This document shows, piece after piece, positions 1,025 through 63,900 of a DNA stretch of 64,000 nucleotides. Position numbers and translations under genes: made by a program. The stretch's first letter is position 1. Every line of letters begins with the position of its first letter. The notes beneath the pieces were generated by a model. The model was not told the DNA's origin. It worked only from the letters and a program-made list of their open reading frames with translations, and ran no database searches. This stretch comes from Odiellus spinosus (taxonomy: Eukaryota > Arthropoda > Arachnida > Opiliones > Phalangiidae). The DNA is taken from NCBI GenBank assembly GCA_963920705.1, contig OY987239.1:9081504-9145503 (forward strand), in the 5' to 3' direction.

Positions 1025-1316
1025 CAAGAAGGATCAGATAAGGAGTGGAAAAGTGGGGCTGCGTTGAGTTAGAGAGAGAAGAGCCAACCTCCCACTCGGG
1101 TGGAAAGGGGGGATAGGAAATTCTCGAGGTAAACTGTTGTCACGTGGTCGCTAGCTAGCGCGTCTCATAAAGGATTCGTTTTACCCACGTGACAACAATT
1201 TACCACGAAGCATCTCTACCCCCGTCTGTCCCCCGTTCTCCCAGAGTGGGAGTTTAGGCCGACGCAGTAGGAGCCGCGCCGTTCCCACCTTTCCTCTCCT
1301 TATCTGATCCTTCTTG
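1025..1316. mobile_element. MITE family C, copy 1
   Basis: A 292-bp element with perfect ends CAAGAAGGATCAG / CTGATCCTTCTTG, flanked by the 7-bp duplication GTGCAAT (1018-1024 and 1317-1323). It has no coding capacity. The second copy, 2699-2989, is in the opposite orientation. Confidence 0.85.
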
Positions 1317-1520
1317 GTGCAATCAATTGATTAATGACTAGAATATAGAAGAGCTATACCTTTGTACGCGCGCTAGTTACAATATTTATATTAGAAAACC
1401 AATTAAAAACATTTAAAATTAAATTTTTTTTATTCATTACTTTCGTCAATTGGTAACTCGGAACCCATTGATTTAGGATAAGAGGTGTAGCTATTTATGT
1501 AATTGAGTTAAACAAGGCCT

Positions 1521-1960
1521 TTAAAGGGAGAATGCAACCTAATTACAAGTGATTTTTTATCGATTCCTTATCGTTTAAATAGGCCTAATCCATCGATAAA
1601 AAGTTTACAATACAAATATTAAACTAGAAATAAATTTAAAACTTACCCTGAAAATAGGCTTAGCGGGATTCATGGAGATCCTGAATCGCGTCCGTGTCAG
1701 GTCTAGCGACCAATGAGCAAAGGCCCGTCGTTCACGCGAGATCTCCGCGAGACTTACGTCGCGCGCGATTGGTCGCTAGACCTGACACGCGAGGAAAACA
1801 GGACCTCCATGAATCCCACTAAGCCTATTTTCAGGGTAAGTTTTAAATTTATTTCTAGTTTAATATTTGTTTGTAAATATTTTCAGTAGTGGATTAAGCC
1901 TATTTAAACAATAAGGAATCGATAAAAAATCACTTGTTGTTAGGTTGCATTCTCCCTTAA
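1521..1960. mobile_element. Family F long-inverted-repeat element (TTAA target), copy 1
   Basis: About 440 bp, nearly palindromic, with ~200-bp arms. The ends AGGGAGAATGCAACC / GGTTGCATTCTCCC lie inside TTAA, as expected for piggyBac-type non-autonomous elements. A second partial right end (GGTTGCATTCTCCCTTTAA) follows at 1974-2001, so the right terminus is duplicated. Other copies: 14903-15341, 26849-27290, 49008-49446. Confidence 0.8.
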
Positions 1961-2084
1961 AAATGCAGTTTCTTGTTAGGTTGCATTCTCCCTTTAAAAT
2001 GCAGTTTCATAGTTAGAAATTACTCACCAAAACCATAAATTTTATTCAATTAGTATTTTATTAATAGACGAATTGAAGAGGTAC

Positions 2085-2290
2085 TTGCAGGGGCAACGCG
2101 CCATTGGAGTTCATCCAGTTTTAATGATGAACCAACTAGGCGGTACCTCCTCCCATCTCGCTTCGAGACTCGACGCGTTTCCCATAGCAACAGGTGTAAT
2201 ACAAGAGCGAGAGCTAGAGTGGAAAGCGCGCCATCTATTGTGATAATTCATCATTATATTTGTACCCCAATGGCCGTATCCCCTGGATCA
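2085..2290. repeat. Interspersed repeat Q, copy 1
   Basis: Shares blocks with 35190-35470 (opposite orientation) and, more weakly, 5890-6150. Shared words include GGGAAACGCGTCGAGTCTCG, the reverse complement of part of this copy, and GTACCCCAATGGCC near one end. It is probably an old MITE; target duplications were not resolved. Confidence 0.5.
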
Positions 2291-2698
2291 GATAGTTTAT
2301 TAGTAGGGAAATTTCGATTTTATGAATTGTACAAATACACGATCCATATAAATGGCGCAAAAGCGATCGCGATTGAATAACCAATAAAAAGGATGACCAA
2401 AGTTGATTTGAACTCGTTCCAGTTTAGTACAAATTCCTGTTGATCCAATGACGGCCTGAACAAGTGGTTATCCAAGAAAAAACCTACTTCCTTAATTTCG
2501 GTATCGAGTAATTTCATTTCTTGAACTTTAATAAACCTAAAAATAACTTAGATTAAGAGACTATTCGCGGCGCCTTAAATTGAAGGTCGTCATCTTAAAC
2601 TAAAGACTGCTTGGTAACCATGCACTCGGGAAGTGTTTTTGACGAAGTAGGTACTATTCCTACTGTTAGGGTTAAAACTACTATAGATAGAGTTTCGG

Positions 2699-2989
2699 CA
2701 AGAAGGATCAGATAAGGAGAGGAAAAGTGGGAACGGCGCGGCTCCTACTGCGTCGGCCTAAACTCCCACTCTGGGAGAACGGGGGACAGACGGGGGTAGA
2801 GATGCTTCGAGGTAAATTGTTGTCACGTGGGTAAAACGAATCCTTTATGAGACGCGCTAGCTAACGACCACGTGACAACAGTTTACCTCGAGAATTTCCT
2901 ATCCCCCCCTTTCCACCCGAGTGGGAGGTTGGCTCTTCTCTCTAACTCAACGCAGCCCCACTTTTCCTCTCCTTATCTGATCCTTCTTG
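2699..2989. mobile_element. MITE family C, copy 2
   Basis: A 291-bp copy, inverted relative to 1025-1316, in the intron between exons F and G of M1. Target duplication GTTTCGG at 2692-2698 and 2990-2996. Confidence 0.87.
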
Positions 2990-4923: not shown

Positions 4924-5239
4924 CAAGAATCCATTCAGGTTCCATAAGAATATGGGAGCATAGCTTTAGCCTCTGGTACCATCTTCCCAAACTTTGTAAC
5001 AAAAGTTCGTCCGCAATTTTCGCAACATTTGTACGCTTAGATCTTTTTTCGGTTGGCTTCATTTTTATTACCCAAAATATTATGTCAAGGTCGTTAGTGG
5101 CGCGGGTTAATAATAGATTTCAGGAGCGATTTACTTGAAAAATCGATTCGAAGCGGACGAACTTTTGCTACAAAGTTTGGGAGGATGGTTATTGAATCGC
5201 GGCCCTCCCATATTCTTATGGAACCTGAATGAATTCTTG
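4924..5239. mobile_element. MITE family B, copy 1
   Basis: A 316-bp element with ends CAAGAATCCATTCAGG / CCTGAATGAATTCTTG and a subterminal word GTTCGTCCGC repeated in inverted orientation. Target duplication CTGACGT (4917-4923 and 5240-5246). It sits in the B-C intron of M1. Confidence 0.87.
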
Positions 5240-6245: not shown

Positions 6246-6564
6246 CAGAAGCCGATGAAACCCTCCTTTGAAGTCTATTACTCCCTGGTCTTGTCTACCA
6301 CTCTCTGTATGGGTTAGTTTCAAAAAACGCGATTCGTACGCCTCCTAACGGTAGATATTTTCGGAGCGGGAGTTCGTCGAGCGAATATCTCTAGCAGCCT
6401 CGGAGTTCGTCAAAAAAACGTCGTCGTTTGTGGAGAGAGAGAATTTCCAATTTTCCGTAGACAGGGGGGTATGAAGTAGGATTGGGAATTTTACCCATAC
6501 AGAGAGGAGCGCTATATCGAACATTAGAGTAGTAGACTTCAAAGGAGGGTTTCATCTACTTCTG
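6246..6564. mobile_element. MITE family A, copy 1
   Basis: Ends CAGAAGCCGATGAAACC and, slightly mutated, CATCTACTTCTG. Target duplication ATATGGT (6239-6245, 6565-6571). Family A is a ~337-bp element whose interior includes ACAAACGACGACGTTTT and CCTAACGGTAGA. It reads open in several frames but encodes nothing recognisable. Confidence 0.87.
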
Positions 6565-7640: not shown

Positions 7641-7730
7641 CAAACTTAATATTTAAATATTGAGATACCAATATAACAACTTTTTTCACTATTTTTAATT
7701 GACAAGCTATGACGTTATACTGTATCTTTG

Positions 7731-8061
7731 CTGATGAAACCCTCCTTTGAAGTCTACTACTCCAATGTTCGATATAGCGCTCCTCTCTGTATGGGTAAAA
7801 TTCCCAATTTTACGAGTTAGAAGGGGTCCTACTTCATCCCCCCTGTCTACGGAAAATTGGAAATTCTCTCTCTCCACAAACGACGACGTTTTTTGGACGA
7901 ACTCCAAGGCTGCTAGAGATATTCGCTCGACGAGCTCCCGCTCCGAAAACATCTACCGTTAGGAGGCGTATGAATCACGCCTTTTGAGAATAACCCATAC
8001 AGAGAGGGGTAGACAAGACCCGGGAGTAATAGACTTCAAAGGAGGGTTTCATCGGCTTCTG
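7731..8061. mobile_element. MITE family A, copy 2
   Basis: The left end has lost about five terminal bases (starts CTGATGAAACCC); the right end is CATCGGCTTCTG. No clear target duplication, consistent with the damaged end. It lies in the spacer between M1 and M2. Confidence 0.82.
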
Positions 8062-8791: not shown

Positions 8792-11700
8792 TTAATTGCA
8801 GAAATAAGCGATCCAAATAGTTGGCGAGAAAGTGATAGCGATTGAATAACCAATAATAAGTATGACCAAAGTTGATTTGAACTCGTTCCAATTTAATACA
8901 AATTCCTGTTGATCCAATGACGGCCTGAACAAGTGTTTATCCAAGAAAAAGCCTACTTCCTTAACCTCGGTATCGAGTAATTTCATTTCTTGTATTTTAA
9001 CAAACCTTTAAATGAATTAGATTAATATATCGTCAGCTAAAGATATTGCCTACGAGGAAGCTCATAATTTCAATTTTTAGCTACATGGACGATGGCGTAT
9101 TACATTGGATAATAGAGTAATGGCGTCAATATAGTTCCGTCCCCCAACTAAGCGGAGTATTGGACCACTGCCTTCTCTAATACTAGCAGAGGTATATAAT
9201 AACCCCCTTCGGGGGGAAGTATGAAAGCCCCTAGACTACCAATGCTAAAAATCACGAACAACAAGAGCCCGCTGCTGACTATCTAGGCCACTAGCTCGCG
9301 CTGGACTTCTCAATGTCGCTACTCTAGTAAATGGTCTTTGTATAACCAAGACAGCTCGATTTGTGTTTAGAACTTCCTGTCTCAGGAGTCAGGCTGTCTG
9401 ATAAAATGGAGTCGAAGGTTGACTTCAGCTCGCGAGTTCCGGAAGTGTGCGTAGGGAAATTTTAGTGAGGTTCAAAATGGTGTATGTATTTTTTGGGAGT
9501 AAAGCGGTGTGTCGATCCGCCGCGATTTACGCCGGGCACTTGTCGTTCGTCGATTTTGTCTATCTTTCATACTTCTCCCCGAAGGGGGTTATTATATACC
9601 TCTGATACTAGGCATATCCTTATCAAAAAACGGAGGGTGGAGGAACCAATTTCAAAAATATCGTTAGATGTCGCTTTCTTGAGGATAGAAAAAGGCGGGA
9701 AATTCATGTTAGGACCGAGAATACACATTTGTAAGAATTAATTGGGATTTATTTTAAGTGACAAATAATTAAACAGTGATTTTAAAATATTTATATTTAA
9801 AATTTACAATTTCTAAATCAAGATCTCTATATTGTAGTCTAGATGTTGCTAGGGGTTCTACGATCTTACTTCGATAGAGCCTAATTTAATCGGCTCTTGG
9901 CGACGCGAGACTCGCGATTGGTTATTCATTACGTAATCCCCAGCAAGATTCCTCAGGAAAGTGACATCTATCTCGGACAACTTGCAAATTGAAAATGACC
10001 AAAATAAAACCTTGTAACTGGTATTTCGAGGCCTACTCTTAGAGAAGACACTGAAAGAGGCATATCTCTATAGCGCAGCTTTGTAAGATAGATTATGATA
10101 CTGACTTTCTGTTCATTTGTTCCTTGCAAGCGTGTGTTAGATTTGGTCCGTGTACGGCAGCCACGCTAAGTATCTCGAGGGGTCTTCCCTGAAATAATCG
10201 GTCGGTGTCCTCCACACCTAGGAACCCAGTGCCAATTATGTTTATTACGGACCTGGTGGTGAAGAAGGCGTAGTGTTTTTCTTCCGCAAGTATGTCGATG
10301 ACCTTCACTATGTCTGTTATGTACACAAACTTATTCGTCTCGTTCAAATACTTCCAAAGAAGATAACCCGCCTCTTCCAAATACTTTTGCGAAACGAGAT
10401 TAAAAATTAATTAAAAATATTGGTATCCATTGACAATCGTAGAACGTTCAAAGATAGAATGAAAAAGCAGTGCAGCGATTAACTGGCTCTTTGAGGCCAT
10501 TTAGATTTTTTCTCTGGTTTCCCACCTTTTCGAGATTGAGGACCAACGAAATAGAATTGGATTCACTATATGTTGGATCACGCAGGGTGACCATTTTTCC
10601 TATATTTCCTATTTTCTCCTATATTTTCACCTCCTTCCTATATTCTCCTATAATTTAATGGCAATTCCTATAATCTCCTATATTTCTATTCAAAATCTCT
10701 AGTTAAGGGTAAAGTCATAAATCATACTGTCAGCTGTGGCTGTATAAGATTATTTTAGCTTAACTGTACATTTTCCAGTTAAAATAGTCTGTAAAATTCC
10801 ATACTTTTTAAGCAATTGTATCATATTAATACCATGTTTAAACCGGTGGCGAGAGTTGTGATGCAATAATAAACTTGGTTCCTACTTTTAATTATTTTCC
10901 TATTTTATCATATATTTTACACTTATTTCTTCCTATTTTATCGTATATTTTACATAAAATTCTTCCTATATTTTCCTATATTTCGCAAAGAAATTTCCTA
11001 TATAGGATTTTCAAATTTTCAGTGGTCACCCTGATCACGTCATTTCCTCGCCAATTTCATTACAATTTAAAGCACGGCAACTCTGCACGTGACAATTCAG
11101 TGTTAGATAACTGTATGAATGAGACATTTGAGTGTCGAAGTCACCCAATCATCTTCGATAGTCATTCACCTAATTGTCGTATTGACGCAATTGTCTGACA
11201 CAGAATTTAAGTAGTAACAAGAATTCATTCAGGTTCCATAAGAATATGGGAGGGCCGCGATTCAATAACCATCCTCCCAAACTTTGTAGCAAAAGTTCGT
11301 CCGCTTCGAATCGATTTTTCAAGTAAATCGCTCCTGACATTATATTATTAACCCGCGCCACTAACGACCTTGACATAATATTTTGGGTAATAAAAATGGA
11401 GCCGACCGAAAAAAGATCTAAGCGTACAAATGTTGCGAAAATTGCGGACGAACTTTTGTTACAAAGTTTGGGAGGATGGTACCAGAGGCTAAAGCTATAC
11501 TCCCATATTCTTATGGAACCTGAATGGATTCTTGGTAGTAAACCATTTGTATTTTACCCAATTGCAGCGCACCGTGCTGTTATTCATCCAATTTTTGTGA
11601 GCCCTATTTATCCCAACCTATGCTACCCTTCTGAAAAAATTTCAAATTTTGTAATACCCCTAAATTTTCTCCATAGTAACTGTCTCCAAACACGATTGGG

Positions 11701-14641
11701 TAGACTTTTTCCAGGTTGTCCACGACGTCAGATACCTCGTCCATGACAACGTATTGACTGTTTGCAAACTCGCAATTCAAATAAGTCTGAATGGTTGTCG
11801 ATATCAGAAAAGCCCCTAATAGCCACGAGCCGAAAAGTACGCGGTACGGTAACGTCTTCCTTCGCTTGATATCTCCTTTAAGACCATTAGAAAAACAATT
11901 ACCTCATTCGGAGCCAAAAATTTCGCGCTAAATTTGCGATGTAATTAGTAAACTAATAAGACGACAGACCTTGACGCACTAAGACGACGGCCATGTTGGC
12001 AAATTCATTAACGTGAGTTTTAGGCAAGTCCCGACATCGTTTGAATCTGTATTTAGTCATGGTTAAAACGCATGACACCAGAACCATGATCAACAACAAG
12101 CAGATATACACCTGAAATATCAAATTTATTTTTAAGTAGCGTTCAAACTATGTTCTGAATCAGTTTTCAACCCTTTCGAAAAGGTTAAATCACCGAAAAG
12201 GGTCATTTGTCGTACCAGAAGCCGATGAAACCCTCATTTGAAGTCTATTACTCCCGGGTCTTGTCTACCCCTCTCTGTATGGGTTATTATTATTCTAACT
12301 CGTAAAATTGGGAATTTTACCCATACAGAGAGGAGCGCTATATGGAACATTGGAGTAGTAGACTTCAAAGGAGGTTTTCATCGGCTTCTGTTATTAATGA
12401 ACAATAATTATATAGTTATTTAAGAAGTAGGTTTCCCGGTCTCGAAAATGGCGGCCACAATTGTAACAAGCTACTTGAAATTGAAGTTGTATCTATTTCC
12501 TTACGTTGACATTGATTGGGATTAGATTCTGGATCGCGTCTTTGTTAATTTTCAATGGATTTTTGCTGAGTATTGAGAAGGAGCTCGTATCCATGGGGAA
12601 AAACATGCCCACTATCGAAAACCACTTTGAAGTGACAGGGTACAAGTCCATCATGATATCCATCGTCTAATCAATATCGAGATCCAAGTTACAAAACAAA
12701 ATGCTTTTAACAAAATTCCGCTGCTTTTGATATGTCAAGAAACGAATACTTACAACACCTTTGTCCGTAATTGTAAGTCGATCATCGGCTACCATATCAG
12801 CTTCGAAAATGACTTGTTCCACGCTAATACAATTATCAAAATTATTTGTTCTAGACAACGATAAACATTCCTGAATGCAACGACTAATCTCCTCAGCGCT
12901 CTCTTTCAACGTATTTATTTAAATTAGGTTAGGCTAGTTAATCTTTCGAACTAGCAGAAGCCGATGAAACCCTCCTTTGAAGTCTACTACTCTAATGTTC
13001 CATATAGCGCTCCTCTCTGTATGGGTAAAATTAACGATTTTATGAGATCAGAGGGGGTCCTACTTCATACCCCCTGTCTACCGAAAATTGGAAATTCTCT
13101 CTCTCCACATACGACGACGTTTGGTTGACGAACTCCAAGGTTGCAGGAGATATTTGCTGGACGAACTCCCGCTCCGCAAATATCTACCGTTAGGAGGCGT
13201 ACGAATCGCGCTTTTTGAAACTAACCCATACAGAGAGGGGTTGACAAGACCCGGGAGTAATAGACTTCAAAGGAGGGTTTTATCGGCTTCTGGTTAGGTT
13301 AGTTGATCACTATGCGCCAATATCGGTATTATATTTCGTGCAAAAGGAATGATTAGGCTTAACTTTAGCTGGTTTAGTTTAAACGGTAGTATTAAGATTA
13401 CCTCAAACATACTCGATCGTTTGTCAAAGTTTAGGTCTAAATCAAGGACCTTAACTAATTAGTCTCTTGTATAATCTATAAATTTATCGTTTATATTGAA
13501 TTAATTTTTAATTAATTAATATTATTAATTAAATTAGACCCGAATCAGATAAAATATAAATAACCCTTTTAAATTAAGTGTGCGGCGCAACCTCTCTTTT
13601 TTTTTTAACTCTTCGCAAATTTAGATTAATTAAAATTAATTTTAATTTGAATATTTTCCTTAAATTAAACTTACTCGAGTTTACAGCATCTATTGATCCA
13701 GCTGGTTCCGAGTTTTACATATTTTTGATAGCTTGGTATAAAATCCAAATATGCCTGCCAAAAATATAAGAAAAATATTAAAAATTGATTTTTAATTCGA
13801 AGAATATAAATAAAACGACGAAACTAAGATTTTAAATCATCTTTTTATTCGTTATTTTTCACAAAAATAAATTTAGAATTTTTTTATCCGAACGTATAAC
13901 TCGGATAATATTCTAAGATAAGGCCATTTTTGGATAAAAACGGATATGGATTAGGTTTTTTTGCTTTATCTACGAATAAGTTAACTGAAATGAAAAATAG
14001 TCTATTTTTAATCAAACAGATAATATACATTAGAATTTAGTAGATTTTATCCAATTAATAAAAATTATACGAATACCGAGCTCTACGTATTGCTGCCCTA
14101 TAATTATACTTTAAAAATTTGACCTACTTGTGATACTCCCATTTTAAGAGTGGAATTGTACATCTTAACCAAAAATTCGTCTATATCAAAATAGTCTTTG
14201 TATGTAATCAAGAATTCATTCAAGTTCCATAAGAATATGGGAGGGCCGCGATTCAATAACCATCCTCCCAAACTTTGTAGCAAAAGTTCGTCCGCTTCGA
14301 ATCGATTTTTCAAGTAAATCGCTCCTGACATCTATTATTAACCCGCGCCACTAACGACCTTGACATAATATTTTGGGTAATAAAAATGGAGCCGACGTAA
14401 AAAAGATCTAAGCGTACAAATGTTGCGAAAATTGCGGACGAACTTTTGTTACAAAGTTTGGGAGGATGGTACCAGAGGCTAAAGCTATGCTCCCATATTC
14501 TTATGGAACCTGAATGGATTCTTGATGTAATAATTCGAATTTAGTGGACTGACGACGATTTTGGGGCGGGTATTTGGGATTTAACATTACGGTGTCTGAT
14601 GAAATTATAGACAAAGAAAGATACAGCCTATTGTTAAAGCT
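8792..14641 (-). CDS. M2: divergent ionotropic receptor-like gene, open through nine exons
   Basis: Exons in coding order: Y 14554-14641, Z 14128-14195, A 13675-13754, B 12754-12898, C 12505-12666, D 11970-12111, E 11658-11875, F 10106-10383, G 8792-9005. They sum to 1395 bp (464 codons plus stop) with matching phases. Y-Z-A-B-C would form the S1 side of the ligand lobe. C ends before TM1 (D, ending VVLVRQG). E gives TM3 (YRVLFGSWLLGAFLIS) and the start of S2 (NCEFANSQYVVMDEVSDVV). F is the rest of S2 and G is TM4 (LVILIIGYSIAITFSPTIW). The likely role is a chemosensory-type cation channel subunit in the plasma membrane; no ligand can be inferred. No signal peptide is seen in Y, so further 5' exons are expected, possibly W2. 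The E donor lies inside transposon-derived sequence. Introns hold MITEs A3, A4, B2, B3 and D1 and element I1. Confidence 0.7.
9187..9604. mobile_element. MITE family D, copy 1
   Basis: A 418-bp element with ends CAGAGGTATATAATAACC / GGTTATTATATACCTCTG and 7-bp target duplication ATACTAG (9180-9186, 9605-9611). It lies in the F-G intron of M2. The only other copy, 21069-21488, is about 95% alike by eye. Confidence 0.88.
9612..9885. repeat. Interspersed repeat N, copy 1
   Basis: Contains AAATATCGTTAGATGTCGC and a TTCTACGATCTTACTTCG end. The inverted counterpart is at 56085-56380. AT-rich interior, no coding potential, family unknown. Confidence 0.5.
10583..11033. mobile_element. Family I hAT-like non-autonomous element, copy 1
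   Basis: A 451-bp element with ends CAGGGTGACCA / TGGTCACCCTG, typical of hAT-like termini. The interior is built from CCTATATTTTCCTAT-like runs near both ends. The flanks (GATCACG left, ATCACGT right) suggest a short target duplication, but its length is not certain. Related copies start at 38916 and 52056. Confidence 0.7.
11034..11668. repeat. Block X, element-derived segment fused to M2 exon E
   Basis: About 330 bp, excluding the nested MITE B2. It recurs at 39347-39662, again directly after a family I element, so I plus X behaves as a compound unit. Its right edge, GTAATACCCCTAAATTTT, runs into the last bases of M2 exon E and supplies the only plausible donor there (GGG|GTATTAC). Confidence 0.6.
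11218..11534. mobile_element. MITE family B, copy 2
   Basis: A 317-bp copy nested in block X. Target duplication GTAGTAA (11211-11217, 11535-11541). The paralogous block at 39.5 kb has the uninterrupted sequence TTTAAGTAGTAAACCATT, an empty site. Confidence 0.9.
12216..12390. mobile_element. MITE family A, copy 3 (internally deleted)
   Basis: Both ends are present, but only 175 bp remain. The middle of the element is missing, joining the two sub-terminal regions. It lies in the C-D intron of M2. Confidence 0.82.
12955..13292. mobile_element. MITE family A, copy 4
   Basis: A 338-bp copy with ends CAGAAGCCG / CGGCTTCTG in the A-B intron of M2, just upstream of exon B. The left flank matches the M1 intron (TTCGAACTAG); the right flank does not, so DNA to its right was rearranged or replaced. 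Confidence 0.85.
13763..14083. mobile_element. Family E element, truncated copy
   Basis: Right-hand ~320 bp of the family, ending CCGAGCTC before TA. Its truncated side stops about 9 bp upstream of exon A of M2, so it lies in the Z-A intron next to the acceptor. Confidence 0.65.
14209..14524. mobile_element. MITE family B, copy 3
   Basis: A 316-bp copy with target duplication ATGTAAT (14202-14208, 14525-14531). It fills the Y-Z intron of M2; in M1 the equivalent interval is only a few tens of bases. Confidence 0.88.
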
Positions 14642-15903: not shown

Positions 15904-16400
15904 CTGAATCGGGTGTTTTGATTTTAGCAGAATCCGATGAAACCCTCCTTTGAAGTCTACTACTCTAATGTTCCATATAGCGTTCCTCTCTGTATGGGTA
16001 AAATCCACAATTTTACGAGATCAGAGGGATCCTACTTCATACCCCTCTGTCTACGCAAAATTGGAAATTCTCTCTCTCCACAAACGACGACGTTTTTTTG
16101 ACGAACTCCAAGGCTGCTAGAGATATTCGCTCGACGAACTCCCGCTCCGAAAATATCTACCGTTAGGAGGCGTACGAATCGCGCTTTTTGAAACTAACCC
16201 ATACAGAGAGGGGTAGACAAGACCCGGGAGTAATAGACTTCAAAGGAGGGGATCATCGGCTTCTGGTTTTAGGCACCCTTTAGCCGTCGTGTCATCGTCC
16301 CTTGCGGTAAAAAATAATGCTAGGCAAATTTGAATATCTGCTATTATTCCCACGGCTCGGTAATCCATAATTGGCCTCCTTTCTATGCCTAGTAGTCCGA
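15904..16400 (-). other. Exon-like upstream segment W2, split by a MITE
   Basis: Best-preserved copy of segment W. On the minus strand it reads MDYRAVGIIADIQICLALFF then TARDDDTTAKGCLKSK and ends at CAG|GTGAGTTGAG (donor at 15903). The hydrophobic IIADIQICLALFFTA run could be part of a signal peptide or first strand of the receptor. The frame is open only when MITE A5 (15928-16265), which lies inside it, is discounted. As it stands the exon would be disrupted. The splice phase does not fit exon Y directly. Confidence 0.35.
15928..16265. mobile_element. MITE family A, copy 5
   Basis: Inserted in segment W2. The flanks ATTTTAG / GTTTTAG are near-identical 7-mers, and the other W copies lack the insertion. 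Confidence 0.87.
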
Positions 16401-17729: not shown

Positions 17730-18321
17730 AGCTCGGAATTCGTATAATTTTATTAGTTGGATAAAAGCTACTAAATTCTGATGTATATTATCTGTTTGAT
17801 TAAAAATAGACTATTTTCATTAGAGTTAACTTATTCGAAGATAAACAGTAAAAAAAAAAACCAGAAGCCGATGAAACCCTCCTTTGAAGACTACTACTCC
17901 AATGTTCCATATAGCGCTCCTCCCTGTATGGGTATAATTCCCAATTTTACGAGTTAGAAGGGGTCCTACTTCATCCCCCTGTCTACGGAAAATTGGAAAT
18001 TCTCTCTCTTCACAAAAGACGACGTTTTTTGGACGAACTCCAAGGCTGCTAGAGATATTCGCTCGACGAGCTCTCGCTCCGAAAATATCTACCGTTAGGA
18101 GGCGTACGAATCGCGCCTTTTCAGAATAACCCATACAGAGAGGGGTAGACAAGACCCGGGAGTAATAGACATCAAAGGAGGGTTTCATCGGCTTCTGAAA
18201 AAACGTAATCCATATCCGTTTTTATTCAAAAATGGCAACTTATCTTAGAATATTATCCGCGTTATACGTTCGGATAAAAAACATTCAAAATTTATTTTCG
18301 TAACTAATAACGAATAAAAAG
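17730..18321. mobile_element. Family E element interrupted by MITE A6 and truncated
   Basis: Starts GCTCGGAATTCGTATAA about 35 bp upstream of exon G of M3. It is split by family A copy 6 and ends without a right terminus near AATAACGAATAAAAAGA. Confidence 0.68.
17862..18197. mobile_element. MITE family A, copy 6
   Basis: Nested in a family E element; target duplication AAAAAAC (17855-17861, 18198-18204). This orders the insertions: E first, A later. Confidence 0.88.
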
Positions 18322-20185: not shown

Positions 20186-20522
20186 CAGAAGCCGATGAAA
20201 CCCTCCTTTGAAGTCTATTACTCCCGGGTCTTGTCTACCCCTCTCTGTATGGGTTATTCTCAAAAGGAGCGATTCGTACGCCTCCTAACGGTAGTTGTTT
20301 TCGGAGCGGGAGCTCGTCGAGCGAATATCTCTAACAGCCTTGGAGTTCGTCCAGAAAACGTCGTCGTTTGTGGAGAGAGAGAATTTCCAATTTTCCGTAG
20401 ACAGGGGGGATGAAGTAGGACCCCTTCTAACTCGTAAAATTGGGAATTTTACCCATACAGAGAGGAGCGCTATATGGAACATTGGAGTAGTAGACTTCAA
20501 AGGAGGCTTTCATCGGCTTCTG
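20186..20522. mobile_element. MITE family A, copy 7
   Basis: A 337-bp copy with target duplication CTACGGT (20179-20185, 20523-20529) in the B-C intron of M3. Confidence 0.9.
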
Positions 20523-21068: not shown

Positions 21069-21488
21069 CAGAGGTATATAATAAACCCCCTTCGGGAGGA
21101 AGTATGAAAGCCCTATACTACCAATGCTAAAAATCACGAACAACAAGAGCCCGCTGCTGACTATCTAGGCCACTAGCTCGCGCTGGACTTCTCAATGTCG
21201 CTACTCTAGTAAATGGTCTTTGTATAAACAAGACGGCTTGATTTGTGTTTAGAACTTCCTGTCTCGGGAGTCAGGCTGTCTGTTAAAATGGAGTCGAAGG
21301 TTGACTTCAGCTCGCGAGTTCCGGAAGTGCGCGTAGGGAAAATTTAGTGAGGTTCAAAATGGTGTAACTATTTTTTGGGAGTAAAGCGGTGTGTCGATCC
21401 GCCACGATTTACGCCGGGCACTTGTTGTTCGTCGATTTTGCCTACCTTTCATACTTCCCCCCCCGAAGGGGGTTATTATATACCTGTG
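21069..21488. mobile_element. MITE family D, copy 2, inside exon B of M3
   Basis: A 420-bp element with ends CAGAGGTATATAATAA / TTATATACCTGTG and target duplication ATATTAC (21062-21068, 21489-21495). The surrounding bases align to exon B of M1 and M2, so this is an exonic insertion. Confidence 0.88.
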
Positions 21489-22925: not shown

Positions 22926-23262
22926 CAGAAGCCGATGAAACCCTCCTTTGAAGTCTAATACTCTAATGTTCGATATCGGGCTCCTCTCTGTATGGGTAAA
23001 ATTCCCAATTTTACGAGATCGGAGGGGTCCTACTTCATACCCCCCTGTCTACGGAAAATTGGAAATTCTCTCTCTCCACAAACGACGACGTTTTTTGACG
23101 AACTCCAAGGCTGCTAGAGATATTCGCTGGACGAACTCCCGCTCCGAAAATATCTACCGTTAGGAGGCGTACGAATCGCGCTTTTTGAAACTAACCCATA
23201 CAGAGAGGGGTAGACAAGACCCGGGAGTAATAGACTTCAAAGGAGGGTTTCATCGGCTTCTG
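22926..23262. mobile_element. MITE family A, copy 8
   Basis: A 337-bp complete copy upstream of M3. The flanks ATAAAAT / ATTTATG do not give a clean duplication. Confidence 0.85.
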
Positions 23263-26600: not shown

Positions 26601-26745
26601 AAAAATGACCCCTATTTTGAAATGGCCGTAACTTTTTTATTTTAACACCTAGGCATAAACCGATTGCACCATTAGAAAGAAGGTATTTCCTAGATTAATT
26701 TAAAATAATGAAATTAACACGAGCCACTCGTTAAAATGGTCCAAA
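23640..26745. repeat. Satellite array, ~172-bp monomer, four-monomer higher-order period
   Basis: About 18 head-to-tail monomers, each with TGACCCCTATCTTGAAATGG, CACCTAGGCATAAA, GAAAGAAGGTATTTCC and GAGCCACTCGTTAAAGAC. Variant monomers recur at a fixed 689-bp spacing. A longer T run lies at about 24391, 25080 and 25769, and AAATTCACATGAG replaces AAATTAACATGAG in the same monomers. This indicates amplification of four-monomer blocks. The edge monomers are more diverged. No coding potential. Confidence 0.93.
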
Positions 26746-27553: not shown

Positions 27554-27889
27554 CAGAAGCCGATGAAACCCTCCTTTGAAGTCTACTACTCTAATGTTCC
27601 ATATAGCGCTCCTCTCTGTATGGGTAAAATTCACAATTTTACGAGTTAGAAGGGGTCCTACTTCATCCCCCTGTCTACGGAAAATTGGAAATTCTCTCTC
27701 TCCACAAACGACGACGTTTTTTGGACGAACTCCAAGGCTGCTAGAGATATTCGCTCGACGAGCTCCAGCTCCGAAAATATCTACCGTTAGGAGGCGTACG
27801 AATCGCGCCTTTTGAGACTAACCCATACAGAGAGGGGTAGACAAGACCCGGGAGTAATAGACTTCAAAGGAGGGTTTCATCGGCTTCTG
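27554..27889. mobile_element. MITE family A, copy 9
   Basis: A 336-bp copy about 30 bp from the 3' end of M4. No clean target duplication was seen. Confidence 0.87.
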
Positions 27890-31636: not shown

Positions 31637-31969
31637 CAGAAGCCGATGAAACCCTCCTTTGAAGTCTATTACTCCCGGGTCTTGTCTACCCCTGTATGAG
31701 TTATTCTCAAAAGGCGCGATTCGTACGCCTCCTAACGGTAGATATTTTCGGAGCTGGAGTTCGTCAAGCGAATATCTCTAGCAGCCTCGGAGTTCGTCCA
31801 AAAAACGTCGTCGTTTGTGGAGAGAGAGAATTTCCAATTTTCCGTAGACAGGGGGGATGAAGTAGGACCCCTTCTAACTCGTAAAATTGGGAATTTTACC
31901 CATATAGAGAGGAGCGCTATATGGAACATTGGAGTAGTAGACTTCAAAGGAGGGTTTCATCGGCTTCTG
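31637..31969. mobile_element. MITE family A, copy 13
   Basis: A 333-bp copy with target duplication TTGACAG on both sides, about 60 bp upstream of the ATG proposed for M4, so it lies in its promoter or 5' leader. Confidence 0.9.
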
Positions 31970-40356: not shown

Positions 40357-40682
40357 CAGAAGCCGATGAAACCCTCCTTTGAAGTCTATTACTCCCGGGT
40401 CTTGTGTATGGGTTAGTTTCAAAAAGCGCGATTCGTACGCCTCCTAACGGCAGATATTTTCGGAGCGGAAGTTCGTCGAGCTAATATCTCTAGCAGCCTT
40501 GGAGTTCGTCAAAAAAACGTCGTATTTTGTGGAGAGAGAGAATTTCCTATTTTCCGTAGACAGGGGGGTATGAAGTAGGACCCCTCCGATCTCGTAAAAT
40601 TGAGAATTTTACCCATACAGAGAGGAACGCTATATGGAACATTAGAGTATTAGACTTCAAAGGAGGGTTTCATCGGCTTCTG
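40357..40682. mobile_element. MITE family A, copy 14
   Basis: A 326-bp copy with a short internal deletion; flanks ACCATGG / ACCATGA form a 7-bp duplication with one change. Confidence 0.88.
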
Positions 40683-44225: not shown

Positions 44226-44565
44226 CAGAAGCCGATGAAACCCTCCTTTGAAGTCTACTATTCCAATGTTTCATATAGCGCTCCTCTCTGTATGGGTAAA
44301 ATTCCCAAATTTACGAGATCGGAGGGGTCCTACTTCATACCCCCCTGTCTACGGAAAATTGGTAATTCTCTCTCTCCACAAACGACGACGTTTTTTGGAC
44401 GAACTCCAAGGCTGCTAGAGATATTCGCTCGACGAACTCCCGCTCCGAAAATATCTACCGTTAGGAGGCGTACGAATCGCGATTTTTTTGAGAATAACCC
44501 ATACAGAGAGGGGTAGACAAGACCCGGGAGTAATAGACTTCAAAGGAGGGTTTCATCGGCTTCTG
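44226..44565. mobile_element. MITE family A, copy 15
   Basis: A 340-bp copy with target duplication AATAGAT (44219-44225, 44566-44572), in the flank upstream of P1. Confidence 0.9.
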
Positions 44566-45583: not shown

Positions 45584-45920
45584 CAGAAGACGATGAAACC
45601 CTCCTTTGAAGTCTATTACTCCTTGGTCTTGTCTACCCCTCTCTGTATGGGTTATTCTCAAAAGGCGCGATTCGTACGCCTCCTAACGGTAGATGTTTTT
45701 GGAGCGGGAGTTCGTCGAGCGAATATCTCTAGCAGCCTTGGAGTTCGTCGAAAAAACGTCGTCGTTTGTGGAGAGAGAGAATTTCCAATTTTCCGTAGAC
45801 AGGGGTGATGAAGTAGGACCCCTAGGATCTCGGAACATTGGGAATTTTCCCCATACATTGAGGAGCGCTATATGGAACATTGGAGTAGTAGACTTCAAAG
45901 GAGGGTTTCATCGGCTTCTG
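45584..45920. mobile_element. MITE family A, copy 16
   Basis: A 337-bp copy with target duplication CTCGTAA in the exon 2-3 intron of P1. P3 has the uninterrupted site GACGCTCGTGAGCACC near 61300. Confidence 0.9.
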
Positions 45921-47705: not shown

Positions 47706-48042
47706 CACTAGCCGATGAAACCCTCCTTTGAAGTCTACTACTCCAATGTTCCATATAGCGCTCCTCTCTGTATGGGTATAATTCCCAATTTTACGAGTTA
47801 GAAGGAATCCTACTTCATCCCCCCTGTCTACGGAAAATTGGAAATTCTCTCTCTCCACAAACGACGACGTTTTTTTTACGAACTCCAAGGCTGCTAGAGA
47901 TATTCGCTCGACGAACTCCCGCTCCGAAAATATCTAACGTTAGGAGGCGTACGAATCGCGCCTTTTGAGAATAACCCATACAGAGAGGGGTAAACAAGAC
48001 CCGGGAGTAATAGACTTCAAAGGAGGGTTTCATCGGCTTCTT
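47706..48042. mobile_element. MITE family A, copy 17
   Basis: A 337-bp copy with target duplication ATTCGAC (47699-47705, 48043-48049). P3 keeps the empty site CTAATTTGACCAATGAGC near 63880. It is inserted in a decayed family F remnant in the exon 4-5 intron of P1. Confidence 0.92.
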
Positions 48043-48439
48043 ATTCGACCAATGAGCAAAGGCCCGTCGTTAAGACGAAATCGCCATGAGATAAAACCTA
48101 TTTTTATGAACGCAAATCATTTACTCCCATCTTAATTTACGAACAGAACCCGATGTTTTCATTCGACAAAATTCTATCAAATATCTATTGGCTGGATGGT
48201 TGCTGGCCATGTTTGTTCTGGCAAAGTCGTATTCGGGTATTTTGAAAAGCAAATTGACAGTCTCGAAATTTTCTCGGATCAACACGCTGCAAGATATTGA
48301 ACGTAGTCCGGGAACTAAACCACTTCTTAGTTACCCATCTGGCTTTGAGGATTATTTGACAAAGGTAACAAATACTGTATTTGAAGACAAACAGTCGGCT
48401 TTGAACAAACCTGGAAATATGACGATATTAGAATGGTCA

Positions 48440-49932: not shown

Positions 49933-50239
49933 CAGAAGCCGATGAAACCCTTCTTTGAAGTCTGTATGGGTTAGCTTCAAAAAGCGCGATTCGTACGCCT
50001 CCTAACGGTAGATATTTTCGGAGCGGGAGTTCGTCGAGCGAATATCTCTAGCAGCCTTGGAGTTCGTCAAAAAAACGTCGTCGTTTGTGGAGAGATAGAA
50101 TTTCCAATTTTCCGTAGACAGGGGGTATGAAGTAGGACCCCTCTGATCTCGTAAAATTGTGAATTTTACCCATACAGAGAGAAGCGCTATATGGAACATT
50201 AGAGTAGTAGACTTCAAAGGATGGTTTCATCGGCTTCTG
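49933..50239. mobile_element. MITE family A, copy 18
   Basis: A 307-bp copy, shortened near the left end, with target duplication TATATAT. P2 has the uninterrupted AATATATATGGCCAACC at 58780. Confidence 0.88.
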
Positions 50240-50678: not shown

Positions 50679-51012
50679 CAGAAGCCGATGAAACCCTCCT
50701 TTAAAGTCGATTATTCCCGGGTCTTGTCTACCCCTCTATATGGGTTATTCTCAAAAGGCGCGATTTGTACGCCTCCTAACGGTAGATGTTTTCGGAGCGG
50801 GTGCTCGTCGAGCGAATATCTCTAGCAGCCTTGGAGTTCGTCCAAAAACGTCGTCGTTTGTGGAGAGAGAGAATTTCCAATTTTCCGCTGACAGGGGGGA
50901 TGAAGTAGGACCCCTTCTAACTCGTAAAATTGTGAATTTTACCCATACAGAGAGGAGCGCTATATGGAACATTGGAGTAGTAGACTTCAAAGGAGGGTTT
51001 CATCGGCTTCTA
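50679..51012. mobile_element. MITE family A, copy 19
   Basis: A 334-bp copy 23 bp after the stop codon of P1; target duplication CTTATAT. P2 has the empty site TCTCTTATATTGAAC at 59240. Confidence 0.9.
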
Positions 51013-52995: not shown

Positions 52996-55900
52996 ATATA
53001 GCATCTATAATATGGCGACAGAAAAATTTGAGTTTCGCTTTAGCGTAAGTTGATTTTGTGGAATCCATATCCGTAGTGAGTGATCATGATAATTATTTTA
53101 AAACAGTCTTTGACACAATACTCTCAAACATTGATCGATAAAATCTTGAGTGGAGTATTTACAGAGCTGAGCGTGCATTCCTACTCGCAATATATCTTAA
53201 CGAGTCTAGCAAATGTTAGGTATTCACATCTCAAAATATTTTGTCACCTTTATTCGTTTTATGTTTCTGGCTATCAATTTCTTTAAAAGGAGCTAGATAG
53301 TACCCCATGATTTCTATTTGTTTTGTATGTAGAGCTCGGAGCTCGTTTAACTTTTGATGTGTGTGTATATTTGTTGTTAAGATTTCCGCGTTTGTAATTT
53401 TCTTGCAACGTGCAAATAATAATTTCCAGTAGCCCTTAGATCACTCGGGATGATCTTGGTAGTGCCAAGAATCCATTCAGGTTCCATAAGAATATGGGAG
53501 CATAGCTTTAGCCTCTGGTACCATCCTCCCAAACTTTGTAACAAAAGTTCGTCCGCAATTTTCGCAACATTTGTACGCTTAGATCTTTTTTCGGTCGGCT
53601 CCATTTTTATTACCCAAAATATTACGTCAAGGTCGTTAGTGGCGCGGGTTAATAATAAATGTCAGGAGCGATTTACTTGAAAAATCGATTCGAAGCGGAC
53701 GAACTTTTGCTTCAAAGTTTGGGAGGATGGTTATAGAATCGCGGCCCTCCCATATTCTTATGGAACCAGAATGGATTCTTGGGTAGTGTAGATCTTACCC
53801 TGACAAAGATACCTCTCATTGTAAACTAAGAAAACTTGTTACCAATTTGTAAAGGACAAGCCTTTTCTGGTTTTTCAGTAAACTGTATTGGGGGTGGTAG
53901 ACAAAGTGAGTTCCACCCTGTATAATTCTAATACGAGTGAAAATTAACCTTTTATATATTTGTTTTATTTATCGTTGGTTGCTTTCTCTGTAAGTAATGT
54001 TTTATTAACTGTTATAGCGTTGTTTATGTATCACCGCGATCATATAAATATCCAGGAAATGCTTTGATTAAGGGAGTAAGTATTGAAATTTAATTATCTC
54101 AGAAAACTAGATGACAAACGGAGGAAATACACAAAGGGAGAGAAAGACGTAGCGAAATGTGAAGGAACATTTTTGTCTTACGCAAATTATCGACCGGCAA
54201 TTTTGGGTTTATACATTTATGCAGGTCGGTATGTCGTGTAGAGTTATGTCATCGACAATGGGTTAATTTGAGATACATTTCATAGATAGGAAGCGACTAT
54301 AAGGGTCCATTTGATCGACAAAAACGAGCCAGCGGGTTGTCCTTTAGTGTTGTTTAAGTCATTTTGTCAGAGCACTAGGGTTTAAGAAGCTGAAACATTA
54401 AGATATTTAATTTCTTCATTTGCTGACCGGAATCTCTGCTGCTGAACTTGTTCAGTAATCTGACACTTATCTTTAAAGCCAGTGTTTGGTAAAATACTAA
54501 ATACCTACTCCTACGATAAAGTATTTAAAATACTTAAAGTATTTTAAAATAATAAATACTTAAAATAGTGTAATTTTATCCTAAATCTGAACGCTTCTGT
54601 TTCAGAACACTTTCATTTAAAAATGCGTAATTTAACTTCGGTCTATTTAAAGATTCCTAAATTTGCTAAAGGAACCACTTCGGCACCTCGAATCGAGAAA
54701 TAGGTGCCACCAATGGTTTCCCCGGCCGAATTTACTTAGGGAAAGGCGGAATAAGCTAGCTCGACCCAGTTTGCGAAGTTATCGACGATTTCCTTTGAAA
54801 TGAAGATTATTTTATGGTTTCTATACACAAGCAATGCCAAATTTTTAAATCGTCGAAAACTTCGCAAATACTGGCTTGATAGCGCTAATTCTGCCTTTTC
54901 CTCGGTAAATTGGGCCAAGAAATCCATTGTTGATGCTCATTTCACGATTCGAGCTGCGCAAGTGGTTCCTTTTTCAAATTTTGGGATTTTTTTTTTTATT
55001 ATAGGCTATAAGATAGTTCAGAAGCAGGGGGTGTTCAGAATTAGAGTCGTTCGTTCAGAAATAGAAGCCGCTACTGCGGTCTTCAAAACCGCCTCCGCGT
55101 CAAATGTACGCGTCATGGAACTATTCAAACTTGGTCGCTAACAATTCCATGGCAATAGAGATCTCGGATTTCTTAAAAAGCGTTCAGAGATAGTCAACCC
55201 TACCCTACCGGCGATAGCCGGAATTTTGCAAGCGTGTTTCTTCCGCTTGCATCTTGATGGTGGTTTTTCACGGACCATTTGACTCTTTGATAAATACAGT
55301 ATTTTCGCTAATAATATTCAGTTTTTTTTAAATACTAGAAAAAATGTATTTAAAATAAAATACTGAATACATTTATTTAAAAAGTGTTTAAAATACTACC
55401 CAACACTGTTCAAAACCACTTTTCCCATGGGGTAAAAAATAATAACGTTAAAAGGACTCGTTTTGGGAGAAATAGGACGCCACGTTTTTGGGAGAACTCA
55501 GAACTGCTAACTATAGTTGAAATGAGAACACTCCCTTGTCCTTTTTCTCTGTGTCGTCACTCCAAACGTGGGCATGCGCTAATTAAAACAATAAAATCCT
55601 GTATTTTGTAGGTCTTTCATATGTTGATGCAAAATTCTGTGCCAAGTAGTAGCACAGAGTTACATTTTTCTCCAGTTTTTACGATTTCTGAAGCTAGAAT
55701 ATTTACTGCCATAAATCCGACAAGTTTCGGTGGAACGGCAAGATTCTCACTGGCAGGATTTCAAGACATAATTTGGATATTAATGGCGATTTTCATCATT
55801 ATTTTGTCTATGACTTCTTTGCTTTTCAAGTATTTTATCCAGCGACACTCTTATAAACGTAGTTGCTTGTGTTTTGAATACATCTTCTTCTTTGTGGCGT

Positions 55901-60140: not shown

Positions 60141-60288
60141 GATCGGGACGATGAATATTTACTCTTTTACTACAGACAGGAGTTTTTCAAAATTTCCTTC
60201 CATTACTAGGCATACTTTAAATACCATTTAAAGTCTATTTGAATCACCCTGTATAAGATATCAAAAGTCTCACTTTATTACATAAGAG

Positions 60289-60603
60289 CAAGAATTCATT
60301 CAGGTTCCATAAGAATATGGGAGGGCCGCGATTCAATAACCATCCTCCCAAACTTTGTAGCAAAAGTTCGTCCGCATCGAATCGATTTTTCAAGTAAGTC
60401 GCTCCTGACATCTATTATTAACCCGCGCCACTAACGACCTTGACATAATATTTTGGGTAATAAAAATGGAGCCGACCGAACAAGATCTAACCGTACAAAT
60501 GTTGCGAAAATTGCGGACGAACTTTTGTTACAAAGTTTGGGAGGATGGTACCAGAGGCTAAAGCTATGCTCCCATATTCTTATGGAACCTGAATGGATTC
60601 TTG
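60289..60603. mobile_element. MITE family B, copy 5
   Basis: A 315-bp copy; flanks ATAAGAG / ATACGAG are a 7-bp duplication with one change. It sits at the left edge of repeat L upstream of P3. Confidence 0.87.
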
Positions 60604-60604
60604 A

Positions 60605-60895
60605 TACGAGTAAACAACGCCCCTTATATTAATACTATCAGCAAAGGTCCAGATAAATTTACCGGCAGATTCTGATTCGAGACACTCTAGCGGTCGGAGT
60701 CGCCGTGTAAATAGTGAATCCGGAAGCGCCACTCTTTGGTGAAATTCCGGAGTTGTGAGGGAAACAATATAGAAATGGGGGCCCCGCCGAAATTCCGTAA
60801 CTCTCTCCTGACTTGAAATATCGAGCTGAAGAGTCCAAACAACTCGAGCCAAACTTTTGCCTTATTTTAAATGATGGGCTTTTGCTGATAATGTG
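60605..60895. repeat. Repeat L, copy upstream of P3
   Basis: Same relation to exon 1 as in P1 and P2, with GGAATCCATATCCGTAGTG-type gene sequence following. Confidence 0.62.
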
Positions 60896-60961
60896 TTGTT
60901 TACTTTTAAGGAATAAAGTTATAGACCTTTGATACCATAAGTGATTTAATAATTTTTATAG

Positions 60962-63900
60962 ATATAGCATCTATAATATGGCGACAGAAAAATTTGAATT
61001 TCGCTTTAGCGTAAGTTGATTTTGTGGAATCCATATCCGTAGTGAGTGATCATGATAATTATTTTAAAACAGTCTTTGGGACATTACACTCAAAAACGGA
61101 TTGAAAAAATCTTGAGTGGAGAATTTGCAGATAAGGACGTGCATTCATTTTCGCAATATATATTAATGAATTTAGCAAATGTTAGGTAAGGATCAAATAT
61201 ATGTATAACTTTTGTTAGTAGTAACTACCATACAAGAGGAGGAGCTTACTTAGGGAATGGGGCCATCGACGTCATCAACTACGTAATAGCTTGTAAAGTT
61301 CATGACGCTCGTGAGCACCGAGTATTTAAGCTTATTTTTTCTATATCCGTGTCAGCTCTCAAGGTCGGGTCTCTCCCGAGTGACTTCTGACCTGTCTGAC
61401 CCCTAGCGTTTTATGACAACAGAAATAACTGCCCTGTAGAGCCTAACGCCAGGCGATTTCGTGACGTAGTTAGCAACCCTGTATAATTCTAATTTTTGGT
61501 TTTTATACGAGTGAAAATGAACCTTAAATATATTTGTTTTATTTGTCGTTTCTCGTTTTCTCTGTAAGTAATGTTTTATTAACTGTTATAGCGTTGTTTA
61601 TATATCACCGCGGTCATTTAAACATGCAGGAAGTGCTTTGTATAATGGAGTAAGTATTGAAATATAATTATCTCAGAAAACTAGACAAACGGAGGAAAAT
61701 ACACAAAGGGAGAGAAAGATGTAGCGAAAAGGGAAGGAGCATTTTTGTCATACGCAAATTATCGACAGGCAATTTTGGGTTTATACATTTATGCAGGTCG
61801 GTAGGTCATCGACAATGGGTTCATTCAGGAGCCGATGAAACCCTCCTTTGAAGTCTATTACTCCCGGGTCTTGTCTACCCCCTCTCTATATGGGTTAGTT
61901 TCAAAAAGCGTGATTCGTACGCCTCCTAACGGAAGATAGTTTCGGAGCGGGATTTCGTCGAGCGAATATCTCTAGTAGCCTTGGAGTTCGTCCAAAAAAA
62001 CGTCGTCGTTTGTGGAGAGAGAGAATTTCCAATTTTCCGTAGACAGGACCCCTCCGATCTCGTAAAATTGAGAATTTTACCCATACAGAGAGGAGCGCTA
62101 TATGGAACATTAGAGTAGTAGACTTCAAAGGAGGGTTTCATCGGCTTCTATTTCATTTGATAGAAGATACATTTTATAGATGAGGAAGCGTTTTTCTATA
62201 GTGTTGTTTGTCATTTTGTCAGAGAACTAGGGCTTAAGAAGCTGAAGCATTAAGATATTTAATTTTTTTCATTTGCTGACCCTCGCACTTTTAAATACGT
62301 AACTGTTTTATCTTCAAAACCGCTTGTCCCATGGGGCAAAAAAAAAAGTCAAGATGAGTGGTAGAAGTTTTAACTTTAGTAGAAATGAGAACATTAATCC
62401 CTTGTCCTTTTTCTCTGTGTCGTCACTCCAAATTTAAACAATAGAAACCTGTATTTTGTAGGTCTTTCATATGTACATGCAAAGTTCTGTGCCAGCTAGC
62501 ACCGAAGCCTTCCATATTTCTCCAGTTTTTATGATCTCAGAAACTAGAATATTTACTGCCATAAATCCGACAAGTTTCGGTGGAACGGCAAGATTCTCAC
62601 TGGCAGGATTTCAAGACATAATTTGGATATTAATGGCGATTTTCATCATTGTTTTGTCTATCACTTCTTTGCTTTTCAAGTATTTTATCCAGCGACACTC
62701 TCGTCAACGTAATTTCTTGTGTTTTGAATACCTCTTCTTCTATGTGTCTTCGTTATTGCAAAACCGTTAAGTATTGATTTTAAAAATACGAATGCCCCTG
62801 AAAGTACCATCGCATAGGACTTGCTCAGGCCCGTCGTCAGGGGGGGGGGGGGGCGGGTGGGCTTGACCCTACCTACAATTTTTCCAAAAATCTTCAAATA
62901 TCTTTATGGCCCTACCTGTCATTTCGATGGCCCTACCTGTCATTTCGATGGCCCTACCTGTCATTTCGATGGCCCTACCTGTCATTTCGATGGCCCTACC
63001 TGTCATTTCGATGGCCCTACCTGTCATTTCGATGGCCCTACGTCTCATTTCGATGGCCCTACGTCTCATTTCGATGGCCCTACCTGTCATTTCGATGGCC
63101 CTACCTGTCATTTCGATGGCCCTACCTGTCATTTCGATGGCCCTACCTGTCATCTCGATGGCCCTACCTGTCATTTCGATGGCCCTACCTGTCATTTCGA
63201 TGGCCCTACCTGTCATTTCGATGGCCCTACCTGTCATTTCGATGGCCCTACCTGTCATTTCGATGGCCCTACCTGTCATTTCGATGGCCCTACCTGTCAT
63301 TTCGATGGCCCTACCTGTCATTTCGATGGCCCTACCAGGCTACGTATAAATTCTCTCTAGTTAAAAGATAGAGAAAATATGTTACCCAGCTATAAAAACA
63401 ACGTTTTTGCTGACCTTCCGTAGACGCCAATGCAGAAGTCTCTGAATGTCTAGAGCCTAGAAAATCATATCATTATCCATCATAGCTGCCCAAATACAGG
63501 CCCTCGGGTCGGCTCGGGACCCAAAGTGACCCGCCAACGCATTTAAATTTACCCGGCAACAGCAGCGATCGGCTGCCGCAGTTCCGCCACGCCATTGTGT
63601 CGTGCTGCCAATACCGGCAGCTGCGGGCAGCCGCCACGTTATTGGTTTTAAATAAATAGTACCAAATTTGAAAATTTCTTGTGGTAATACTATTTCGTCC
63701 GAAAATGTGCCCTACCACGGCCCTACCTAAAATTTTAACCTGGCGACGGCCCTGGACTTGCTAGAGAAAAGGTGTCCTTTATCCAAGTATATTTACCCAG
63801 GGTTCGTACACCACCTAAAAAAGTCAGGGAAACTTGCCCTTAAAATAGGCTTAGCTGGATTCATGGAGATCCTGAGTTACTAATTTGACCAATGAGCAAA

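Follow-up and report, generated by a model that had tools for sequence, protein, structure and literature searches.

Abundant CA-ended MITE families with 7-bp target duplications in Odiellus spinosus, probably of the P superfamily

Four MITE families in the window and in the genome

The 64,000-nt stretch of the Odiellus spinosus genome analysed here (C17:9081504-9145503, with contigs denoted C1, C8 and so on; hereafter the window) carries four families of miniature inverted-repeat transposable elements (MITEs), which we call A, B, C and D and which share CA..TG ends and 7-bp target-site duplications (TSDs). The end sequences of all four were found in the window, where comparison with the family consensuses gave 22 matches to A, from 20 elements of which two are split, five to B, two to C and two to D, together covering 9,446 of the 64,000 bases. 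We consider it likely that A–D are non-autonomous P-superfamily MITEs moved in trans by P transposases of the type that duplicates 7 bp. The elements in the window are these:

6246..6564, minus strand: family A MITE, TSD ATATGGT, exact 7 bp
7730..8061, plus strand: family A MITE, degraded left end, flanks unmatched
12216..12390, minus strand: family A MITE, internal deletion
12955..13292, plus strand: family A MITE, flanks unmatched
15928..16265, plus strand: family A MITE, 7-bp TSD with 1 mismatch
17862..18197, plus strand: family A MITE, TSD AAAAAAC, exact 7 bp
20186..20522, minus strand: family A MITE, TSD CTACGGT, exact 7 bp
22926..23262, plus strand: family A MITE, flanks unmatched
27554..27889, plus strand: family A MITE, flanks unmatched
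28239..28575, minus strand: family A MITE, flanks unmatched
29156..29458, plus strand: family A MITE, left end truncated
30171..30507, minus strand: family A MITE, TSD TTAAGAC, exact 7 bp
31637..31969, minus strand: family A MITE, TSD TTGACAG, exact 7 bp
40357..40682, minus strand: family A MITE, 7-bp TSD with 1 mismatch
44226..44565, plus strand: family A MITE, TSD AATAGAT, exact 7 bp
45584..45920, minus strand: family A MITE, TSD CTCGTAA, exact 7 bp
47706..48042, plus strand: family A MITE, TSD ATTCGAC, exact 7 bp
49933..50239, minus strand: family A MITE, left part rearranged, TSD TATATAT, exact 7 bp
50679..51012, minus strand: family A MITE, last base changed, TSD CTTATAT, exact 7 bp
61826..62150, minus strand: family A MITE, 7-bp TSD with 1 mismatch (GTTCATT/TTTCATT)
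4924..5239, minus strand: family B MITE, TSD CTGACGT, exact 7 bp
11218..11534, plus strand: family B MITE, TSD GTAGTAA, exact 7 bp
14209..14524, plus strand: family B MITE, TSD ATGTAAT, exact 7 bp
53466..53781, minus strand: family B MITE, GGTAGTG at both sides, left copy shifted one base
60289..60603, plus strand: family B MITE, 7-bp TSD with 1 mismatch
1025..1316, plus strand: family C MITE, TSD GTGCAAT, exact 7 bp
2699..2989, minus strand: family C MITE, TSD GTTTCGG, exact 7 bp
9187..9604, plus strand: family D MITE, TSD ATACTAG, exact 7 bp
21069..21488, plus strand: family D MITE, TSD ATATTAC, exact 7 bp

Searches over the contigs of the 443-Mb genome recovered the A end 13,129 times in forward and 13,150 times in reverse orientation (32 bp, up to 3 mismatches), the B end 2,864 and 2,873 times (35 bp, up to 3 mismatches), the C end 4,195 and 4,187 times (21 bp, up to 2 mismatches) and the D end 2,241 and 2,204 times (27 bp, up to 2 mismatches), with 0 matches to the reversed-pattern controls. 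At two ends per element, the sum of 44,843 ends corresponds to some 22,000 elements. Mean pairwise identity among sampled copies was 94% for A (n=36), 97% for B (n=26), 96% for C (n=14) and 97% for D (n=26); these copies were picked by perfect ends and a length filter, so that true divergence is higher. Between families, a short-word BLAST of the consensuses returned only 10-bp matches (A with C), and the original prediction, which had called the families unrelated, is right as far as their interiors go. What the ends have in common is CA followed by four purines. We met no families like A–D in a limited and partial search of the published literature, and viral contigs gave 0 matches to their ends. 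A 21-bp match to A in a Solirubrobacterales metagenome-assembled genome was judged to be chance; its surroundings are 66–68% GC and show no further similarity.

Some copies have structures of their own. Two loci (L030 and L033) hold composite B elements, with the same ~400-bp insert at the same position in longer B copies, and the composite itself seems to transpose; two B-end pairs ~707 and 735 bp apart among the matches listed on C1 may be further composites. One C copy (L039:891-1521) has its left part tandemly repeated every 170 bp within a single 7-bp duplication. Exact A ends at C1:170420-1403959 (52 places among the matches listed) all lie on the plus strand, which looks like an artefact of the listing, and most of the eight loci fetched from there carry both A ends.

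Duplication length, target motif and ends

TSDs were read at 122 distinct two-ended A–D elements from the window and 98 loci, the latter chosen by zero-mismatch ends and all on contig 1, so that the counts describe this sample and not TSD length across the genome. An exact 7-bp duplication flanks 82 of the 122 elements (A 27/43, B 13/28, C 19/24, D 23/27), rising to 103 when one mismatch is allowed, whereas exact 8-bp duplications, the hAT expectation, number 0; in a single element the longest exact flank match is 6 bp. Exact 7-bp matches averaged 0.78 and reached at most 6 in 2,000 shuffles of the right flanks. The remaining 19 elements have more divergent flanks, as would be the case for copies that are old or have recombined, or for mispaired ends. 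The 7-bp duplication of A–D is real. This bears out the original prediction, which had described four families with CA..TG ends and 7-bp duplications such as TTAAGAC (A), GTAGTAA (B), GTTTCGG (C) and ATACTAG (D), each of them exact in the window; the modal 8-bp duplication that, as it had said, would make them ordinary hAT MITEs was not seen in the sample.

Other inverted-repeat ends in the same loci were read in the same way, after selection by a scan that required a 5–10-bp duplication. CAGGG and CAGTGG ends resemble those of hAT elements. Of the ends of hAT appearance, CAGGGACGGA gave an 8-bp TSD in 3 of 4 cases and CAGTGGCG in 1 of 1, these matching over only 18–20 of 30 end bases, and CAGGGTGACCA gave 6 bp in 3 of 4 (ATCACG, ATCGTA and CATTAG, at window 10583-11033, L020:1887-2291 and L035:1546-2008), an unusual length for ends that look like hAT. 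In the CAAGGTTAGTAA group (L023:541-1009; L074:2348-2863), 30 of 30 end bases match and the TSD is 8 bp in 2 of 3. Because 6- and 8-bp results were obtained at these ends, the method evidently detects lengths besides 7. Further CA-ended copies duplicate 7 bp, namely CAACGCCTCC (2/2), CAGAAATAG (1/1) and CATAGAG types (2/2), found in L024, L068, L077, L060 and L002; A–D are not the only 7-bp families here.

The rebuilt empty sites of A–D form a palindrome, T-nnn-T-nnn-A-nnn-A, with T at position −2, T2 and A6 within the TSD, and A at position 10. In the 103 elements whose TSDs are exact or differ at a single base, the inner pair T2/A6 is present at 157 of 206 positions and the outer pair T−2/A10 at 144 of 206; about 31.5% would be expected for each. 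By family, the inner pair is found at 50/68 positions in A, 35/44 in B, 25/42 in C and 47/52 in D, and the outer pair at 50/68, 21/44 (p 0.018), 30/42 and 43/52, respectively. This common target motif is the best evidence that A–D use the same or closely related transposases, and combined with the common 7-bp TSD it supports a shared mechanism. A palindromic target with T2/A6 fits the P superfamily, although a similar hAT motif makes T2/A6 alone non-diagnostic.

The terminal inverted repeats (TIRs) are nearly perfect over 38 bp in A, 35 bp in B, 33 bp in C and 41 bp in D. Further inward, A, B and C carry subterminal inverted repeats (58-72, 51-87 and 65-87, respectively), which were matched by 0, 0 and 2 of 2,000 shuffles. 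These inner repeats lie 51–87 bp from the ends, near the THAP-binding sites of the P element (41–63 bp; 53–63 and 41–51 bp from its two ends) and of Galileo (~70 bp) (PMC3688188; this and the other literature statements here draw on parts of the papers cited), and by their position they are putative THAP-binding sites. TIR length, TSD length and the inner target motif each fit P, and none is diagnostic singly.

P elements of this genome and published relatives

Genome searches gave first-look candidates for four domains: P RNase-H, 386 (150 scored, best E 1.9e-39); P GTP-binding, 164 (144 matches); THAP, 638 (150 scored); and hAT dimerisation, 220 (150 scored). One P family, with an 801-amino-acid product, is present as seven copies on five contigs with a common 5′ boundary in a DNA search, and its 31-bp TIR occurs seven times in forward and seven times in reverse orientation, all perfect, with no other genome occurrence within 3 mismatches. 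THAP and RNase-H (PF21787) domains were found at 7/7 copies and the GTP-binding domain (PF21788) at at least 4/7; frames of 798–801 amino acids are open in four copies, and three contain stops. In the 1,301 bases read on the upstream side of the P gene of one copy (L102), a THAP open reading frame (ORF) starts 294 bases into the element. Flank reads gave an exact 7-bp TSD at 7/7 copies and 8 bp at 0/7 (GTAAAAC at two separate loci, ATTAAAC, GATTGAC, GTATAAT, CTTCAAA and ATACAGA), and the inner motif T2/A6 is present at 12 of 14 positions (p 4e-5). The genome therefore has a genuine P element that makes its cuts 7 bp apart and has the same inner target motif as A–D, which supports the hint in the original prediction that the families might be P-like. 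The L102 copy and its six relatives further resemble A–D in having a long TIR, perfect over 31 bp compared with nearly perfect over 33–41 bp.

Short THAP ORFs of fixed length are also dispersed in the genome (for example at C11:13937373, C17:6347862 and C1:19231165), with 186 amino acids at at least 19 places and also 160, 127 and 123 amino acids. Among the matches listed, no P RNase-H domain lies within 20 kb of the 19 ORFs of 186 amino acids, and these may be elements whose sole product is a DNA-binding domain.

In Drosophila melanogaster, 1360, of the P superfamily, has 7-bp TSDs at 274 of 279 insertions with the motif GTTNAAC (earlier KTNBWAB), the P element has 8-bp TSDs at 1,207 of 1,226 with the motif GTCCGGAC, and hobo, a hAT element, has 8-bp TSDs at 1,196 of 1,198 with the motif GTNCGNAC (PMC3276498). 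Galileo, a P-superfamily element of Drosophila, makes TSDs mostly of 7 bp (few of 8), GTANTAC, within a 15-bp palindromic target (PMC4168063). With the 7-bp TSDs of 1360 and Galileo published, 7 bp is a known P-superfamily value. 1360 resembles A–D in its 7-bp TSD and in a target with T2 and A6, but the P-group motif given there is ANAGT..ACTNT where A–D favour T at −2, and A–D are without a transposase (PMC3276498). Galileo likewise shares the 7-bp TSD and palindromic target, and its THAP site at ~70 bp can be set beside the inner repeats of A–C, whereas it differs in its long foldback-like TIRs, its AANGT..ACNTT motif and its higher site preference (PMC4168063, PMC3688188). The P-MITEs of Anopheles gambiae provide a precedent for MITEs related to P elements, and the P TIRs there, at 27–31 bp, are comparable (PMC1562414). 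Tm1 (Mutator/Foldback) was considered as a match and rejected, since its own TSDs are mostly 9 bp in the published account; an uncharacterised inverted-repeat element nested in Tm1 has 7-bp TSDs.

Partner search and competing explanations

The search for an autonomous partner used lists of 100 exact ends per family and 150 domains, which makes it a weak test both ways. On contig 1, 210 of the 400 listed exact A–D ends have no listed partner within 900 bp. Among the 98 loci and the window, ends lacking a second end within 560 bp yielded 31 segments for comparison, many of them very short, and inspection of the loci by eye revealed no transposase-like ORFs of at least 130 amino acids. A 3.5-kb exact D-end pair (C1:17192963-17196504) was tried as an autonomous element and rejected when small probes showed two separate MITEs.

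The original prediction had asked for autonomous elements with the same ends as the MITEs; none was found for A–D in the partial lists, but a pair of ends from another 7-bp family encloses P domains. This family, E (CAACGCCTCC), has 593/585 ends genome-wide, and among 100 exact ends listed the only convergent pair 1.5–15 kb apart spans C8:9641238-9653614 (12.35 kb), with P RNase-H and GTP-binding domains at C8:9647046-9647747, a candidate autonomous P element with E ends. P hits occur in 0.6% of 12.35-kb stretches taken at random from C8, a chance of ~4% once corrected for the seven convergent lone pairs examined across A–E (B 4, D 2, E 1). Family G (CATAGAG) has 146/145 ends genome-wide, and at C14:18764132 one such end has a P transposase on its own strand 2.5 kb to the inside; with a shift control of 16% this is not significant. 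No hAT domain was found within 8 kb of E or G ends among the matches listed. For E and G, as sister CA-ended 7-bp families, the picture leans to P.

Under the P-superfamily reading, autonomous P elements elsewhere in the genome would make a P-type transposase, with a THAP domain and an RNase-H core bearing a GTP-binding insertion, which would bind sites near both MITE ends and excise the MITE at CA..TG. The MITE would then enter a loosely palindromic, AT-rich target, T-nnn-T-nnn-A-nnn-A, cut with a 7-bp stagger, and gap filling would leave the 7-bp duplication. Membership of A–D in the P superfamily is suggested, and the four families appear to add many new members to a known superfamily. The original prediction had proposed one undescribed or poorly described transposase for all four families: a common mechanism is supported by the 7-bp TSD and the motif, but an undescribed enzyme is not needed, 1360 and Galileo being published (PMC3276498, PMC4168063). 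Because the TIRs differ, the MITE families would have different P partners, and several related transposases rather than one probably move A–D. We put a low probability on the idea that one enzyme from an unrecognised clade, cutting strictly 7 bp apart at T-nnn-T-nnn-A-nnn-A targets, recognises at least four (perhaps seven) MITE families, whose TIRs share little beyond CA and a purine-rich start, and has spread more than 20,000 copies through the genome.

Several observations weigh against placing A–D in the P superfamily. No transposase was found between A–D ends in genome searches using partial lists, and among the matches listed no P domain lies within 8 kb inward of the 210 lone A–D ends, of which 3 have a listed hAT domain inward (one A end at 4.1 kb, two B ends at 7.7 and 7.9 kb). 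A shift control on the E ends gave 4.4%, and at another G end a P gene lies 2.6 kb away on the outward side. The 801-amino-acid family, the sole P family whose ends were read, has CGG..CCG ends unlike the CA..TG of A–D and seven copies only, and its outer motif T−2/A10, at 7 of 14 positions, is not significant (p 0.12). The subterminal inverted repeat of D is within chance (1,996 of 2,000 shuffles do as well), and the CAAGGTTAGTAA group joins a long TIR to 8 bp, so that a long TIR is not specific to 7 bp; these two results slightly lower the odds that A–D belong to P. As the hAT-looking CAGGGTGACCA group makes 6 bp, TSD length alone does not name a superfamily. The P elements and P-MITEs of Anopheles gambiae, unlike A–D, have 8-bp TSDs (PMC1562414).

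The main rival is that A–D are hAT MITEs of a lineage that duplicates 7 bp instead of 8, which we regard as unlikely. In its favour, hAT ends begin with CA, as do those of the Drosophila P element (CA..TG). The genome holds many hAT domain candidates, the 6-bp TSDs of CAGGGTGACCA imply that hAT-like TSD length may vary here, and the target preference NTNNNNAN given for hobo by earlier studies resembles NTNNNAN plus one base (PMC3276498). Against this stand the absence of exact 8-bp TSDs from the sampled A–D elements, the 8 bp made in 4 of 5 cases by the presumed hAT ends CAGGGACGGA and CAGTGGCG, and the short match of hAT-looking ends compared with the 33–41-bp TIRs of A–D. As for the three lone ends with a hAT domain inward, the two B cases adjoin five hAT hits spaced ~25 kb from one another, which seem to form one tandem array. 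The hAT domain lies at the C-terminus of its protein, so that an end at a distance of 4–8 kb is unlikely to be part of the same element.

A transposase superfamily not yet described, making staggered cuts of 7 bp, would agree with the failure of the partial searches to find an autonomous partner for any of the four families, and with ends and interiors that differ among them; we give it very little probability, since a known superfamily with the same TSD length and inner motif is present in the genome and nothing further is needed. The original prediction had also raised Dada-like elements, whose TSDs of 6–7 bp cover the observed length, the TSD range being the one point of agreement (PMC3706591). 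The published account describes Dada-U6 and Dada-U1 as lacking TIRs and the elements with defined ends as lying in small RNA genes (PMC3706591), whereas A–D have TIRs of 33–41 bp and tens of thousands of ends, and Rfam gave no RNA family at gathering score in the window; a Dada origin is hardly credible.

Elsewhere in the window there are four tandem arrays, with a 172-bp unit in 17.8 copies (23675-26735), a 41-bp unit (36715-37190), a 24-bp purine-rich unit in 107 copies with strong strand asymmetry (41037-43591) and a 21-bp unit (62906-63336). Fragments resembling Lig_chan, the ion channel of ionotropic receptors, lie at 48110-48439 and 56627-56989 (E 0.0004 and 0.001, below the Pfam curated cut-off).

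The 7-bp-duplicating repeat class makes up ~15% of the window, and membership of the P superfamily would explain it. The 801-amino-acid family adds, to the Drosophila cases cited, an example of a P-type element with cuts spaced by 7 bp. This genome, with its many P families, is one in which what sets 7- versus 8-bp duplication could be compared.

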